Shown one piece after another: positions 43,693 to 51,366 of a DNA stretch of 64,000 nt. The notes beneath the pieces are model-generated. The model made no database searches. It was given only the letters and a program-made list of their open reading frames with translations, and had not been told where the DNA came from. Origin of the DNA: Acidobacteriota bacterium (lineage in GTDB: Bacteria; Acidobacteriota; Vicinamibacteria; Vicinamibacterales; UBA2999); NCBI GenBank assembly GCA_018000455.1, contig JAGNJW010000001.1, positions 62,001 to 126,000 on the forward strand, in the 5' to 3' direction. Within the stretch, counting starts at the first letter, position 1, and each line of letters starts with the position of its first letter. Both the position numbers and the translations under genes were made by a program.

Positions 43693-44574
43693 ATGTCCGA
43701 CCCGAACCTGACGTCCATCTGTTTCTACAACGATCACTGGGGCACAGGTGCGGTGCCCCTGATGACGTCGCATACGAACGCCGCGTGGCTCGCCAACACG
43801 GTGTTCGACGGCGCCCGCTCGTTCGAGGGAGTCGCGCCCGATCTCGATCTGCACTGCGCGCGCGCCGTGCGCTCGGCCGAGGGCCTGCTGATGAAGCCGC
43901 CGGTCACCGCCGATCGCATCCTCGAGCTGGCGCGCGAGGGGATCGCGAAGTTCCCGGCCGATGCCCCGCTCTACATCCGCCCGATGTTCTGGGCCGAGGA
44001 TGGGCTCGTTGCCGTCGTCCCCGAGTCGACCCAGTTCGCGCTCGTCATCCAGCGGATGCCGTTGCCAGATCCGGCCAAGGGGTTCTCGGCGTGCCTGTCG
44101 CCCTTCCGCCGGCCGGGTCCCGAACAAGCTCCGACTCATGCCAAGGCCGCGTGTCTGTATCCGCTGGCCGGCATGGCCATCGCCCAGGCCAAACGCCGCG
44201 GTTTCGACAACGCCGTGATGCGCGATCCGCTCGGGAACGTGGCCGAGTTCACCGCGCAGAACGTGATGATCGTGAAGGACGGCGTCGTGCACACGCCCGT
44301 GCCGAACGGCACCTTTCTGAACGGCATCACACGCCAGCGCGTCATCGGCCTGTTGCGTGAGGCCGGCATCGAGGTGCGCGAACGCACGATTGGCCCGGCG
44401 GAACTGCTCGAGGCCGACGAGATCTTCTCGACCGGCAATCACGGCAAGGTCGTGCCGTGCCTGCGCTACGAGTCGCGCACCCTCGCGGCCGGGCCGATCG
44501 GCCAGCAGGCCCGCGCGCGCTACTGGGAGTTCGCCCACGCTGGCGCCGCCCAGCCCGCGGCCTCGCGAGGGTAG
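43693..44574 (+). CDS. ilvE: Class IV aminotransferase (branched-chain amino acid aminotransferase-like)
   Basis: A 293-residue PLP enzyme. The active-site lysine is K151 in THAKAACLYPLAGMAIAQAK, and the conserved GFDNAVMRDPLGNVAEFTAQNVMIV and GITRQRVIGLL follow. It transfers amino groups, normally to make Leu, Ile and Val from 2-oxoacids, though D-amino acid and aminodeoxychorismate lyase relatives share the fold. A perfect GGAGG Shine-Dalgarno sequence lies 7 nt upstream and TATAAT is at 43663-43668. Divergent from the RluA gene. The gene symbol is tentative. Confidence 0.78.
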   Translation: MSDPNLTSICFYNDHWGTGAVPLMTSHTNAAWLANTVFDGARSFEGVAPDLDLHCARAVRSAEGLLMKPPVTADRILELAREGIAKFPADAPLYIRPMFWAEDGLVAVVPESTQFALVIQRMPLPDPAKGFSACLSPFRRPGPEQAPTHAKAACLYPLAGMAIAQAKRRGFDNAVMRDPLGNVAEFTAQNVMIVKDGVVHTPVPNGTFLNGITRQRVIGLLREAGIEVRERTIGPAELLEADEIFSTGNHGKVVPCLRYESRTLAAGPIGQQARARYWEFAHAGAAQPAASRG

Positions 44575-44748
44575 GCCCGGCGGCGACGGCGGCAAGGTGG
44601 GGGCTCGACGGCTTTAATCGCCCGAGCGAGAGGCCAGGAAACTGCGTCCTGCCGGCGGGGGATTCCCCGCGCGGTGGGACCTTCTTGCGGTCTCTCCGGC
44701 CCTCCAATTCCGCGATCCAGAAATTCCGGCCTGTCCCGTGTTGCGGGC

Positions 44749-44764
44749 TTGGTACGCCCCTTGC
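44749..44764 (+). promoter_or_regulatory. Sigma-54-type promoter (-24/-12) of the PEGA gene
   Basis: TTGGTACG-N4-TTGC matches the RpoN consensus TGGCACG-N4-TTGC with the correct 12-nt distance between GG and GC. Transcription would start near 44776, about 47 nt before ATG 44823. No sigma-70-like -10 is apparent in the gap. If used, this gene needs an RpoN activator encoded elsewhere. Confidence 0.55.
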
Positions 44765-44822
44765 GCGTCGTGATGGCGGGGAGGTTCCCCGGCGATGTCG
44801 GTGCGACGAAGGGAGTCGGGTC

Positions 44823-45782
44823 ATGACCTTGAAACCTGTCTCGATGGCGACCGCGATGGCGTGTGCCTTGGCACTGCCGGCCATGGCAGGCCGACCCTCT
44901 GACGGCCGCACCCTACTGCCCGGTTGGTCGGTGGCCCAGCAGGCCCGCGAGCGGACACCCCCGCCCGAGCAAGCGCGCGAGCGCCGCCCCGATGAGACGC
45001 AGGCACGTGAGCGCCGACCGGACGAGACGCAGGCCCGCGCACGCCAGCGGTCGGCGCCGCGGCCTGCTCCGCGCCCCACCAAGCGCGGTAGCGTCGTCTT
45101 CATTGGCGGCTACTTTTACGACCCGTTCTTCGGGCCGTACCCGTGGTGGTCGCGTCCCGCCCACCCCTACTGGTACTTCGCACCCTACGACCACCGCGCC
45201 GAACTTCGGATCGACTGCCCCGATCGCCGGGCCGCCGTCTACGTGGACGACTTCTACGCCGGCATCGTCGACGACTTCGACGGCAACTTCCAGCGCCTGC
45301 CGCTGCCGCCTGGCGGGCACCGGATTGCACTGTATCTCGAGGGCTTCGAGACGGCGGAGTTCAGCGTCTACCTGCGGCCGGGATCGACCTTCACCCTGCA
45401 CCACGTCATGGAGCGCCTGGCGCCAGGGATGACGAGCCGGCGGCCACGTGTGTCGCTGCCAGTGCCCACGCCGCCCGACGGCACCTATTCCGTTCCGGGC
45501 ACCACGTCGCCGATTGCCAGCCCGTCACTCGAGCCTGACACCGCCGCATCGGTCTTCGGCGTGCTGGAACTGCGCGTGCAACCGGATTCGGCCATCGTGA
45601 TGGTGGATGGCGAGCGCTGGATGAGTTCGGACGACGGCTGGTATGAGCTGCAACTGCCGGCCGGCACGCACCGGATCGACGTGACCGCACTCGGCCATCG
45701 GCCGTTCACGACGACCGTCGACATAGCGGTGGATGCCACCGCGCCGCTCAACGTCAGTCTCACGCGGGAGCGGACGCCATGA
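44823..45782 (+). CDS. Exported PEGA-domain protein
   Basis: A 319-residue protein with a signal peptide (MATAMACALALPAMA). Residues about 40-80 are Arg/Glu/Pro-rich with a duplicated 10-residue unit ARERRPDETQ. A Tyr/Pro/Trp-rich stretch follows (GYFYDPFFGPYPWW). Two PEGA-type domains follow: about 120-200 (ELRIDCPDRRAAVYVDDFYAGIV) and 245-319 (LELRVQPDSAIVMVDGERW, LPAGTHRIDVTALGHRPF). PEGA domains are surface-exposed beta modules of unknown binding role. Behind a sigma-54 promoter match. It overlaps the next (broken) gene by ATGA. Confidence 0.8.
   Translation: MTLKPVSMATAMACALALPAMAGRPSDGRTLLPGWSVAQQARERTPPPEQARERRPDETQARERRPDETQARARQRSAPRPAPRPTKRGSVVFIGGYFYDPFFGPYPWWSRPAHPYWYFAPYDHRAELRIDCPDRRAAVYVDDFYAGIVDDFDGNFQRLPLPPGGHRIALYLEGFETAEFSVYLRPGSTFTLHHVMERLAPGMTSRRPRVSLPVPTPPDGTYSVPGTTSPIASPSLEPDTAASVFGVLELRVQPDSAIVMVDGERWMSSDDGWYELQLPAGTHRIDVTALGHRPFTTTVDIAVDATAPLNVSLTRERTP
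44973..45032 (+). repeat. Two tandem 30-bp repeats inside the PEGA gene
   Basis: The unit encodes ARERRPDETQ twice (44973-45002 and 45003-45032), with differing synonymous bases, and a looser partial copy precedes it. It lengthens the charged linker between signal peptide and first domain. It looks like an old in-frame duplication. Confidence 0.7.
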
Positions 45783-48888: not shown

Positions 48889-49083
48889 GGACCGGACCGA
48901 CCATGGCCGGGTTCGGATGCCCTCAACATGATGGCGCGGCCCCCGTCGAGCCCGGTCACCGTGTTGGGACCTCAGCGCGGTCTATGATTGTAACCGCCGG
49001 AGTGAAACCGCTAGACTCTGGGTCCGGCGGATGCCTATTTGGCGCCCCTGCCGGCATTTATTCGGGCGATGAGGAGGCGGGAC

Positions 49084-50463
49084 ATGGGTCGTTTGAATCC
49101 GTGGGTGTTTTCGGGCGTAGTGGGAATGCTGGCGGCCGGTGCCGCACCAGCGGCAGCTCAGAACGCCGGCGCGTCGCCGACATTCGCCAAGGACATCGCG
49201 CCGATCTTCCAGGCCAAGTGTCAGGCGTGCCATCAGCCCGATTCAATCGCGCCGATGTCGCTCATCACCTACCAGCAGGCACGCCCGTGGGCGCGCTCGA
49301 TCAAGGATCGGGTGGCCCGCCGCCAGATGCCGCCCTGGCACATCGACCAGTCGGTCGGCGTGCAGCAGTTCAAGAACGACATGTCGCTCAGCGACCAGCA
49401 GATCGACACCATCGTCAAGTGGGTCGATTCCGGCGCGCCGCAGGGCGACCCGAAGGACCTGCCGCCCGCCAAGCCGCTCGTGACCACCAACGAGTGGCAG
49501 GGCGTGATGGACGGCTTCGGTCCGCCGGACGTCGTCGTCAAGTCGTCCGAGTACAAGATGCCGGCCGTGGGCCAGGACGTCTGGTACCGCCCGATGAGCG
49601 ATATTCCGCTCACCGAGCCGCGTTGGGTGAAGATGGTCGAGATTCGTCCCACCAACATGAAGGCTCGCAAGATCGTGCACCACTCGATCGCCTACCTCGT
49701 GCTGCAGGACGATCCGGAAGCCGTCAACACCGGCACCGCCACCTTCGGGCTGTCGGGTTCGCAGTCGCGCGAAGACCTGTTGGCGCGCCGTCCGCAGCTG
49801 ATGGAGTGGGCGATCGGCAAGGGCTACGACAAGTTCGCCGATGGCACGGGCAAGCTCGTGGTGCCCGGCGAGAAGATCTCGTGGGATCAGCACCTGCACG
49901 CAGTGGGCGAAGAGATCGATGGCGGGTCGGAGATCGGCCTGTGGTTCTACCCGAAGGGCCAGGAGCCGAAGAAGCGCAGCTATCTCATCGGCTTCACGGG
50001 CCTGCGTGAGCGCGAGTTCCTCGACATCCCGCCCAACTCGGTGGCCTACACCGAGGGTTTCACGGTGCTCAAAGAGAACACCATGATCACCAACTTCCAG
50101 CCGCACTTCCACCTGCGCGGGAAGGCGATGAAGGTCGAAGCCATCAAGCCCGACGGCGGCCGCGAGATCATCAGCTACGTCGGCAACTTCAACTTCAACT
50201 GGATGACCAACTACATCTACGAGGATGATGCCTCGCCCATCTTCCCGAAGGGCACGATCATCCAGGTGAGCGCGTGGTACGACAACACCGCCGCCAACAA
50301 GGACAATCCGGACCCCGAGCAGTGGGTGGGCTACGGCGATCGCACCGTGGACGAGATGGCACACGCCTGGATGAACGTCGTCTACTACACCGATGACGAG
50401 TACAAGGCGATCGTGGCCGAGCGCAAGGCCAAGGCCGGGCGCACCACGGTCGAGCGCCAGTAG
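49084..50463 (+). CDS. Heme c-bearing PHM-like (Cu type II, ascorbate-dependent-monooxygenase fold) protein
   Basis: A 459-residue exported protein with a signal peptide (VFSGVVGMLAAGAAPAAA). Residues 33-120 form a cytochrome c-like module with one heme site C46-Q-A-C49-H50 (IFQAKCQACHQPDSIAPM). Residues about 170-459 resemble the two copper domains of peptidylglycine/dopamine monooxygenases: HH pair H199/H200 (KIVHHSIAYLV), H270/H272 (DQHLH), HxH H341/H343 (PHFHLRGKAM), and M425 in a DEM motif. These fit the CuH and CuM ligands in order and spacing. AGGAGG lies 7 nt before ATG 49084. The next gene is 15 nt downstream. Confidence 0.75.
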   Translation: MGRLNPWVFSGVVGMLAAGAAPAAAQNAGASPTFAKDIAPIFQAKCQACHQPDSIAPMSLITYQQARPWARSIKDRVARRQMPPWHIDQSVGVQQFKNDMSLSDQQIDTIVKWVDSGAPQGDPKDLPPAKPLVTTNEWQGVMDGFGPPDVVVKSSEYKMPAVGQDVWYRPMSDIPLTEPRWVKMVEIRPTNMKARKIVHHSIAYLVLQDDPEAVNTGTATFGLSGSQSREDLLARRPQLMEWAIGKGYDKFADGTGKLVVPGEKISWDQHLHAVGEEIDGGSEIGLWFYPKGQEPKKRSYLIGFTGLREREFLDIPPNSVAYTEGFTVLKENTMITNFQPHFHLRGKAMKVEAIKPDGGREIISYVGNFNFNWMTNYIYEDDASPIFPKGTIIQVSAWYDNTAANKDNPDPEQWVGYGDRTVDEMAHAWMNVVYYTDDEYKAIVAERKAKAGRTTVERQ

Positions 50464-50478
50464 GCCGGGGAGTCGCCC

Positions 50479-51366
50479 ATGTCAGTCGTCCGTCTCGCGC
50501 CGCAGCTCGTCTGCGGCGCCTTTCTCCTGATCGGAGGAGCGTGGGTGTCTGCCCAGCAGGCGCCCGTGCTCCCCTACGAACCGCCCAAGCAATTCGGCGC
50601 CAGCATCACCGGGGCCTTCGAGGGATGGTTCGATAGCGCCGACGGCAGCCACAACTTCCTCGTCGGCTACTTCAACCGCAATCTGAAGCAGGCGATGGAT
50701 GTGCCGATCGGACCGAACAACCGCATCGAGCCCGGCGGCCCCGACCTGGGGCAGCCGACGCACTTCGAGCCGCACCGGCGCACCGGTGTCTTCATCGTGC
50801 AGGTGCCGAAGACGTTCGCACCCGATCAGAAACTGACGTGGACGCTGACCGTCAACGGCCAGACGACGCAGATCCCCTTGCGACTGCACCGCGACTACAA
50901 CGTCAATCCGTTCTCGGATGTCGCCATCGGGAACACGCCGCCGGTGGTGAAGCTCGGCGCCAGCGGCCCCTCCATTCAAGGGCCAGTTGCGCTGCTCACG
51001 ACGGCGCCGGCCATGACGGCGTCGTTGGACGCTCCGCTCACTCTCACGGCATCGGTCGAGGACGACGGCAAGTTCGCCAGCGGCACCATGGCGCCGGTGA
51101 GGGACGGCCGCTCGCCCGTGAACCTGCACTGGCTGAAGTACCGCGGGCCGGGTACGGTCACCTTCGACCCGGCGGATCCCCAGCTACAAGTGTCGAAGGG
51201 CGGTGGCGTGGACGAGCCGTTCAGCGCGGCCGGCACGACCACCGCGAAGTTCAGCGCGCCTGGCGAATACGCCCTGATGCTGCTGGCCACCGACTTCTCC
51301 GGCGAGGGCGGCAACGGCGAAGTCTGCTGCTGGACCAACGCCTACGTGAAGGTCTCGGTCAAGTAG
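50479..51366 (+). CDS. Secreted Ig/PKD-like beta-sandwich protein next to the heme-copper protein
   Basis: A 295-residue exported protein. Signal peptide (LVCGAFLLIGGAWVSAQ) then FGASITGAFEGWFDSADGSHNFLVGYFNRN, VTWTLTVNGQTTQIPL-type strands, and a C-terminal Ig-like part (PLTLTASVEDDGKFASG, KFSAPGEYALMLLATDFSGEGGNGEVCCWTNAYVKVSV). No catalytic motif. Fold and family not recognised with certainty. It follows the heme/copper protein by 15 nt, so they are likely co-expressed partners in the periplasm. Confidence 0.6.
   Translation: MSVVRLAPQLVCGAFLLIGGAWVSAQQAPVLPYEPPKQFGASITGAFEGWFDSADGSHNFLVGYFNRNLKQAMDVPIGPNNRIEPGGPDLGQPTHFEPHRRTGVFIVQVPKTFAPDQKLTWTLTVNGQTTQIPLRLHRDYNVNPFSDVAIGNTPPVVKLGASGPSIQGPVALLTTAPAMTASLDAPLTLTASVEDDGKFASGTMAPVRDGRSPVNLHWLKYRGPGTVTFDPADPQLQVSKGGGVDEPFSAAGTTTAKFSAPGEYALMLLATDFSGEGGNGEVCCWTNAYVKVSVK

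Follow-up and report, generated by a model that had tools for sequence, protein, structure and literature searches.

A predicted DBH/PHM-like copper monooxygenase with a fused cytochrome c and an Ig-like partner protein in Acidobacteriota

Introduction

Dopamine beta-hydroxylase (DBH) and peptidylglycine alpha-hydroxylating monooxygenase (PHM) are copper monooxygenases with two copper sites, which in animals serve the synthesis of noradrenaline and of amidated peptides. In DBH, CuH is bound by H262, H263 and H333 and CuM by H412, H414 and M487 (PMC4846438). In DBH and PHM the coppers lie over 10 A apart, and how electrons bridge this gap is an unsettled question of the enzyme class (PMC4846438). 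DBH carries in cis an Ig-like DOMON domain that structurally resembles the cytochrome domain of CDH (PMC4846438). PHM and DBM were tabulated under eukaryotes only in a review from 2020 (PMC7435645). Our literature search among open-licence papers gave no description of a PHM or DBH fused to cytochrome c. Haem domains are known to feed electrons into copper oxygenases, for example in haem-DOMON cellobiose dehydrogenase with lytic polysaccharide monooxygenases, but in that case the haem is b-type and the copper enzyme a protein of its own, unrelated to the one described here.

Here we explore a gene pair in a window of 64,000 nucleotides, the whole stretch of acidobacterial DNA that was analysed, for which an earlier note made from the letters alone had proposed a cytochrome c fused to PHM-like copper domains.

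Methods

The fusion protein was modelled with AlphaFold2 from a 61-member alignment, and the model was compared with known structures by means of Foldseek and VIA-align. Conservation of ligand and haem positions was scored on 61 relatives plus 31 more distant cousins, 92 sequences together. Sampling for the distribution was centred on Acidobacteriota. Signal sequences were judged by eye.

Results

Gene pair and expression signals

The two open reading frames are present as the earlier note stated, both on the forward strand and separated by 15 nt (Table 1). The start of the partner gene is preceded by GGGGAG. Since the apparent flanking genes are oriented opposite to the pair, it looks like a two-gene unit. 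Both products start with a Sec-type signal, MGRLNPWVFSGVVGMLAAGAAPAAAQ (about residues 1-26) in the fusion protein and MSVVRLAPQLVCGAFLLIGGAWVSAQ in the partner. Comparison with the orthologue at locus L007 gave a dN/dS of about 0.19 for the fusion gene and about 0.21 for the partner gene, which indicates purifying selection on both. The source assembly consists of 54 contigs (5.19 Mb), and the named contigs nearest to it belong to Acidobacteria, including a Luteitalea MAG. Elsewhere in the window, the translated ORF at 44457-45782 (+) has short tandem repeats of the TQARERRPDE type before PEGA-like domains.

Table 1. Features of the gene pair, in window coordinates
Feature	Position	Strand	Remarks
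Ribosome-binding site AGGAGG of fusion gene	49072..49077	+	six bases upstream of ATG; from sequence
Cytochrome c - DBH/PHM-like fusion gene	49084..50463	+	459 aa, ATG start; predicted exported
Cytochrome c domain	49180..49437	+	about residues 33-118; Pfam Cytochrom_C and model helices
Haem c attachment motif C46-Q-A-C49-H50	49219..49233	+	invariant, 61/61 relatives and 31/31 cousins
M82 in MPPW motif, putative sixth haem ligand	49327..49329	+	invariant, 92/92
CuH-type beta-sandwich domain	49519..49983	+	about residues 146-300; structural match to DBH/PHM
H199-H200, predicted CuH ligands	49678..49683	+	invariant
H270, predicted third CuH ligand	49891..49893	+	aligns with first His of DBH LEVHYH
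CuM-type beta-sandwich domain	49984..50403	+	about residues 301-440; structural match to DBH/PHM
H341-F-H343, predicted CuM ligands	50104..50112	+	align with DBH HTH
M425 in DEM motif, predicted CuM ligand	50356..50358	+	aligns with Met of DBH EEMC
Partner gene	50479..51366	+	295 aa; predicted secreted two-domain beta-sandwich / Ig-like protein
Partner N-terminal beta-sandwich domain	50605..50883	+	about residues 43-135; model; barely covered by fold comparison
Partner C-terminal Ig/PKD-like domain	50926..51363	+	about residues 150-295; VIA Z up to 11.2
Vicinal C283-C284 of partner	51325..51330	+	kept in 97% of partners

Fold of the copper core

The model of the fusion protein has a pLDDT of 87.9 and a pTM of 0.84. 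Its top match by Foldseek is human DBH (4.1e-12), and ranks 1 to 31 are all DBH and PHM chains. VIA-align superposed it on human DBH with a Z of 21.0 (300 residues, 3.9 A) and on PHM with a Z of 19.4 (244 residues, 3.0 A), the match spanning residues 146-436 of the fusion protein, while the best unrelated fold, peptide:N-glycanase, reached a Z of 8.1. Thus the predicted structure confirms a DBH/PHM fold for the two-domain beta-sandwich core, rather than a different fold that would have spoken against the PHM-like domains proposed earlier.

By sequence the relation is much fainter. PDB searches with the fusion protein and with family profile A3 retrieved cytochromes and chance matches only, neither DBH nor PHM, hence the connection required the predicted fold and the cousins. 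Pfam models Cu2_monooxygen and Cu2_monoox_C do not match the fusion protein itself, and among the 61 relatives they gave matches in 13, with 0.0017 as best value. Matches to these two families, for which a profile search had been suggested, are found in cousins, and cousins with the same N-terminal cytochrome c exceed the Cu2_monoox_C cut-off. Since the Cu2_monoox_C matches also fall within the stretches retrieved by A3, both sequence and fold place the fusion in the superfamily. One cousin, L144, aligns with human DBH by sequence alone (E 2.2e-7), pairing LQVHYH with LEVHYH, PHMHLLGRK with LHTHLTGRK and DEMC with EEMC.

Copper ligands

Only six of the 17 His and Met residues in the core are invariant among the 61 homologues: H199, H200, H270, H341, H343 and M425. 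Of the 295 columns of the core, 15 do not vary, and that all six fall among these is not expected by chance (hypergeometric, 6e-9). In the 31 cousins they are invariant too, except for M425 in two sequences. A profile alignment of the fusion family with the corresponding DBH segment places H270, H341, H343 and M425 opposite DBH ligands. Hence the ligand order HH, H, HxH, M that had been read from the sequence holds. The choice between H270 and H272 as third CuH ligand, which the earlier note had left open, falls to the invariant H270, as H272 is kept in 45 of the 61 relatives only.

The spacing in the fusion protein is 70 residues from HH to H, 71 from H to HxH and 82 from HxH to M, which on these counts appears close to the 64, 70 and 70 of PHM. 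The residue two before HxH is Gln in 56 of the 61 relatives and also in DBH. In PHM this position is presumably Arg240, which we take to bind the peptide carboxylate; a Gln instead of this Arg speaks against peptide amidation. The fusion protein has no cysteines other than the two of the haem motif, C46 and C49, thus the core disulfides of PHM and DBH are absent.

Cytochrome c domain

The proposed CxxCH haem site is indeed on the same polypeptide as the copper core: the motif lies in a region that matches Pfam Cytochrom_C above cut-off (2.5e-6, residues 39-116) and has predicted helices at residues 34-50, 63-78 and 104-115. M82 is the probable sixth haem ligand, since it is invariant whereas M58 is not, being replaced by Phe in 11 of the 31 cousins. 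With CxxCH in a predicted exported domain and a candidate axial Met, the domain can, as far as its sequence goes, be assigned to the class I c-type cytochromes. Cytochrome c assembly genes are present in the source genome.

Partner protein

Of 122 homologues, 103 have a partner gene next to them in the same orientation, usually downstream and sometimes upstream, a count in which L002 and L084 were tallied by hand and several other loci end at contig edges. This adjacency suggests a genuine two-gene module. Pairwise distances in the fusion and partner families correlate with an r of 0.74 over 90 pairs, the best of 1000 permutations reaching 0.24, and shared descent also contributes to this correlation. 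The model of the partner (pLDDT 89.5) has two beta-sandwich domains. Its Ig-like C-terminal domain and its Sec-type signal are in line with the secreted Ig-like protein described before, and PKD matches were obtained in 30 of 70 partner relatives. Beside distant cousins that pass the PF03712 cut-off, no partner gene was found within 1.5 kb flanks.

Neighbourhood

No third conserved gene was found near the loci (79 loci; Pfam tally of 98 neighbouring ORFs); the tally contained a few outer-membrane receptor domains and otherwise no recurrent function. NHL-repeat or NHL-propeller genes lie near eight of the 79 loci (L020:3936-5405 (-), L061, L071, L080 and others), and one of the encoded NHL proteins has the PAL half of PAM as a distant match (1.6e-7). 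A general PAL/NHL partnership was rejected, because such genes are near these eight loci only and match other NHL proteins better than PAL. The fusion protein has no PAL domain, neither fused nor linked as PAM would have.

Family and distribution

Of 59 relatives, 41 have homologues in their genomes, a single genome giving as many as 34 matches, which bears out the impression that related proteins are frequent in soil bacteria; at E 1e-20 they occur in 66 of 297 Acidobacteriota genomes. The source genome has three full fusion copies, each with a partner gene. In the genome of one relative 15 paralogues were sampled, in all of which the four haem and six copper positions are kept, and 13 partner ORFs were found in the same stretches. 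No plasmid match was found for the fusion protein.

Several variants were seen. L004:1444-2253 (+), on source-genome contig C12, consists of the cytochrome c and the CuH half only and has lost the His-His pair; it adjoins a protein with repeated metal-binding motifs of the CPMH/CPICKMGLEP type, and similar half-length forms occur in L094 and L098. Relatives at L069:3735-5828 (+) and L042:10814-12550 (-) have a C-terminal TPR-like extension and those at L146 and L151 a C-terminal DUF3471. In Nonomuraea gerenzanensis, L156:3722-5050 (+) encodes a PHM/DBH-like lipoprotein that has the core and the ligand motifs without cytochrome c; its 11.85-Mb record is labelled plasmid, but given its size is more likely a chromosome. 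Genes of the acidobacterial type are also present on contigs labelled as other phyla, for instance L047 and L048 (Bifidobacterium breve MAG) and L044 (Reyranella MAG). The loci with labels Reyranella, Acidimicrobiia and Bifidobacterium (L037, L043, L044, L047, L048) are probably on mislabelled or contaminating contigs.

Haem-copper oxidase subunit I is present in 65 of 66 carrier genomes versus 179 of 231 non-carriers (Fisher, 7e-6), which is to be read as supportive only, since the genomes are related and not independent. The sole carrier without it is a 72% complete bin.

Discussion

Comparison with known systems

The fusion protein resembles DBH (PDB 4zel) and tyramine beta-monooxygenase in its two-domain copper core, the order of the six ligands, the Gln before HxH, an additional N-terminal domain ahead of the core and its predicted secretion. 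The N-terminal domain of DBH is a haem-less, Ig-like DOMON, whereas that of the fusion protein is predicted to be a cytochrome c with covalent haem. Furthermore, unlike DBH, the fusion protein lacks disulfides and a C-terminal dimerisation domain, and has a separate Ig-like partner. One could speculate, by analogy, that this partner is the trans counterpart of the DOMON domain that DBH has in cis.

With PHM (PDB 1phm, 6ala) it shares a core fold of about 245 residues at 3.0-4.0 A besides ligand order and spacing. It differs from PHM by the cytochrome c fusion, an identity of 13-15% only, the lack of a fused or regularly linked PAL gene and the loss of what is presumably the Arg for the peptide carboxylate. 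Among the bacterial members of PF03712/PF01082, acidobacterial cousins in which the same cytochrome c precedes the core score above the PF03712 cut-off, whereas the fusion protein itself is below detection and has an Ig-like partner gene. Since the architecture is visible to Pfam in these cousins, databases may already label such proteins ascorbate-dependent monooxygenases.

Proposed mechanism and alternatives

We consider it reasonably probable that the two genes encode a copper monooxygenase of the DBH/PHM superfamily which depends on O2, acts outside the cytoplasm and takes its electrons from the fused cytochrome c instead of ascorbate. H199, H200 and H270 would bind CuH and H341, H343 and M425 CuM. 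CuM(I) would bind O2 and hydroxylate a C-H bond of the substrate; the two electrons for this would leave the respiratory cytochrome pool singly and pass via the fused haem to CuH and on to CuM. The partner would be the enzyme's own subunit for shaping or presenting the substrate site. A small molecule is a more likely substrate than peptidyl-glycine, and dozens of copies per genome suggest diversified substrates.

The fold, the six invariant ligands and the bridge from L144 to DBH count for a monooxygenase. The missing disulfides, the failure of the Pfam copper-monooxygenase models to match the fusion protein and the lack of another conserved neighbour that points to a substrate count against it. 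Adjacency and distance correlation argue for an enzyme of two proteins. The haem motif and M82, without exception in the 92 sequences, and the cytochrome c assembly genes speak for the cytochrome as donor, and the oxidase in nearly all carriers supports a link to oxygen.

The haem beside the coppers could have other roles, such as sensing or reverse electron flow. A copper monooxygenase might be fed by ascorbate or another small reductant, in which case the cytochrome c would be there for redox sensing, for docking or as a structural support. Ascorbate is the donor in PHM and DBH, the copper sites of which are exposed to solvent (PMC4846438). The cytochrome-free lipoprotein of Nonomuraea demonstrates that such a core also exists with no haem fused to it, but precisely this lends meaning to the strict conservation of the haem site throughout the fusion branch: haem motif and M82 vary no more than the copper ligands do, in the 15 paralogues of one genome as well as in the 92 sequences. 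We therefore regard ascorbate feeding as unlikely, though it deserves to be taken seriously, and a haem module in place of ascorbate as the best explanation.

It is improbable that the protein runs in reverse, as an oxidase or dehydrogenase in which electrons flow from the substrate to the coppers and through the cytochrome c into the respiratory chain. Many periplasmic dehydrogenases do end in a fused cytochrome c and the carriers have haem-copper oxidases that could be invoked, but the ligands are those of a monooxygenase that activates O2 and we know of no dehydrogenase with the DBH/PHM set. Very little speaks for a periplasmic protein that binds or handles copper and lost monooxygenase activity or never had it: the half-length L004, with haem but no His pair, demonstrates that non-enzymatic forms do arise, yet all six ligands including the CuM Met are invariant, and up to 34 copies per genome exceed the needs of copper homeostasis. 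Least credible of all is a peptide C-terminal alpha-amidating enzyme, i.e. true PHM activity with the partner or another secreted protein as peptide substrate, which the modelled PHM fold and the few NHL-propeller genes, including the PAL match, might suggest, but against which speak the better matches of these proteins to other NHL proteins, their absence from most loci and the DBH-like Gln.

Conclusion

The haem-fused copper core and its partner point to a large and so far unstudied family of bacterial enzymes, which may draw on respiration instead of vitamin C. We give slightly better than even chances to the wider view that this is a respiration-wired, ascorbate-independent branch of DBH/PHM, a two-protein enzyme diversified into about 30 copies per genome in some Acidobacteriota, which would equip these bacteria with a large set of C-H hydroxylases outside the cytoplasm and be the bacterial equivalent of the enzymes that make neurotransmitters and neuropeptides in animals. 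If true, it would provide simple bacterial systems for studying electron transfer between the coppers, in which the built-in haem is a spectroscopic handle on each delivered electron, and it would mean unsuspected oxidative chemistry in abundant soil bacteria.
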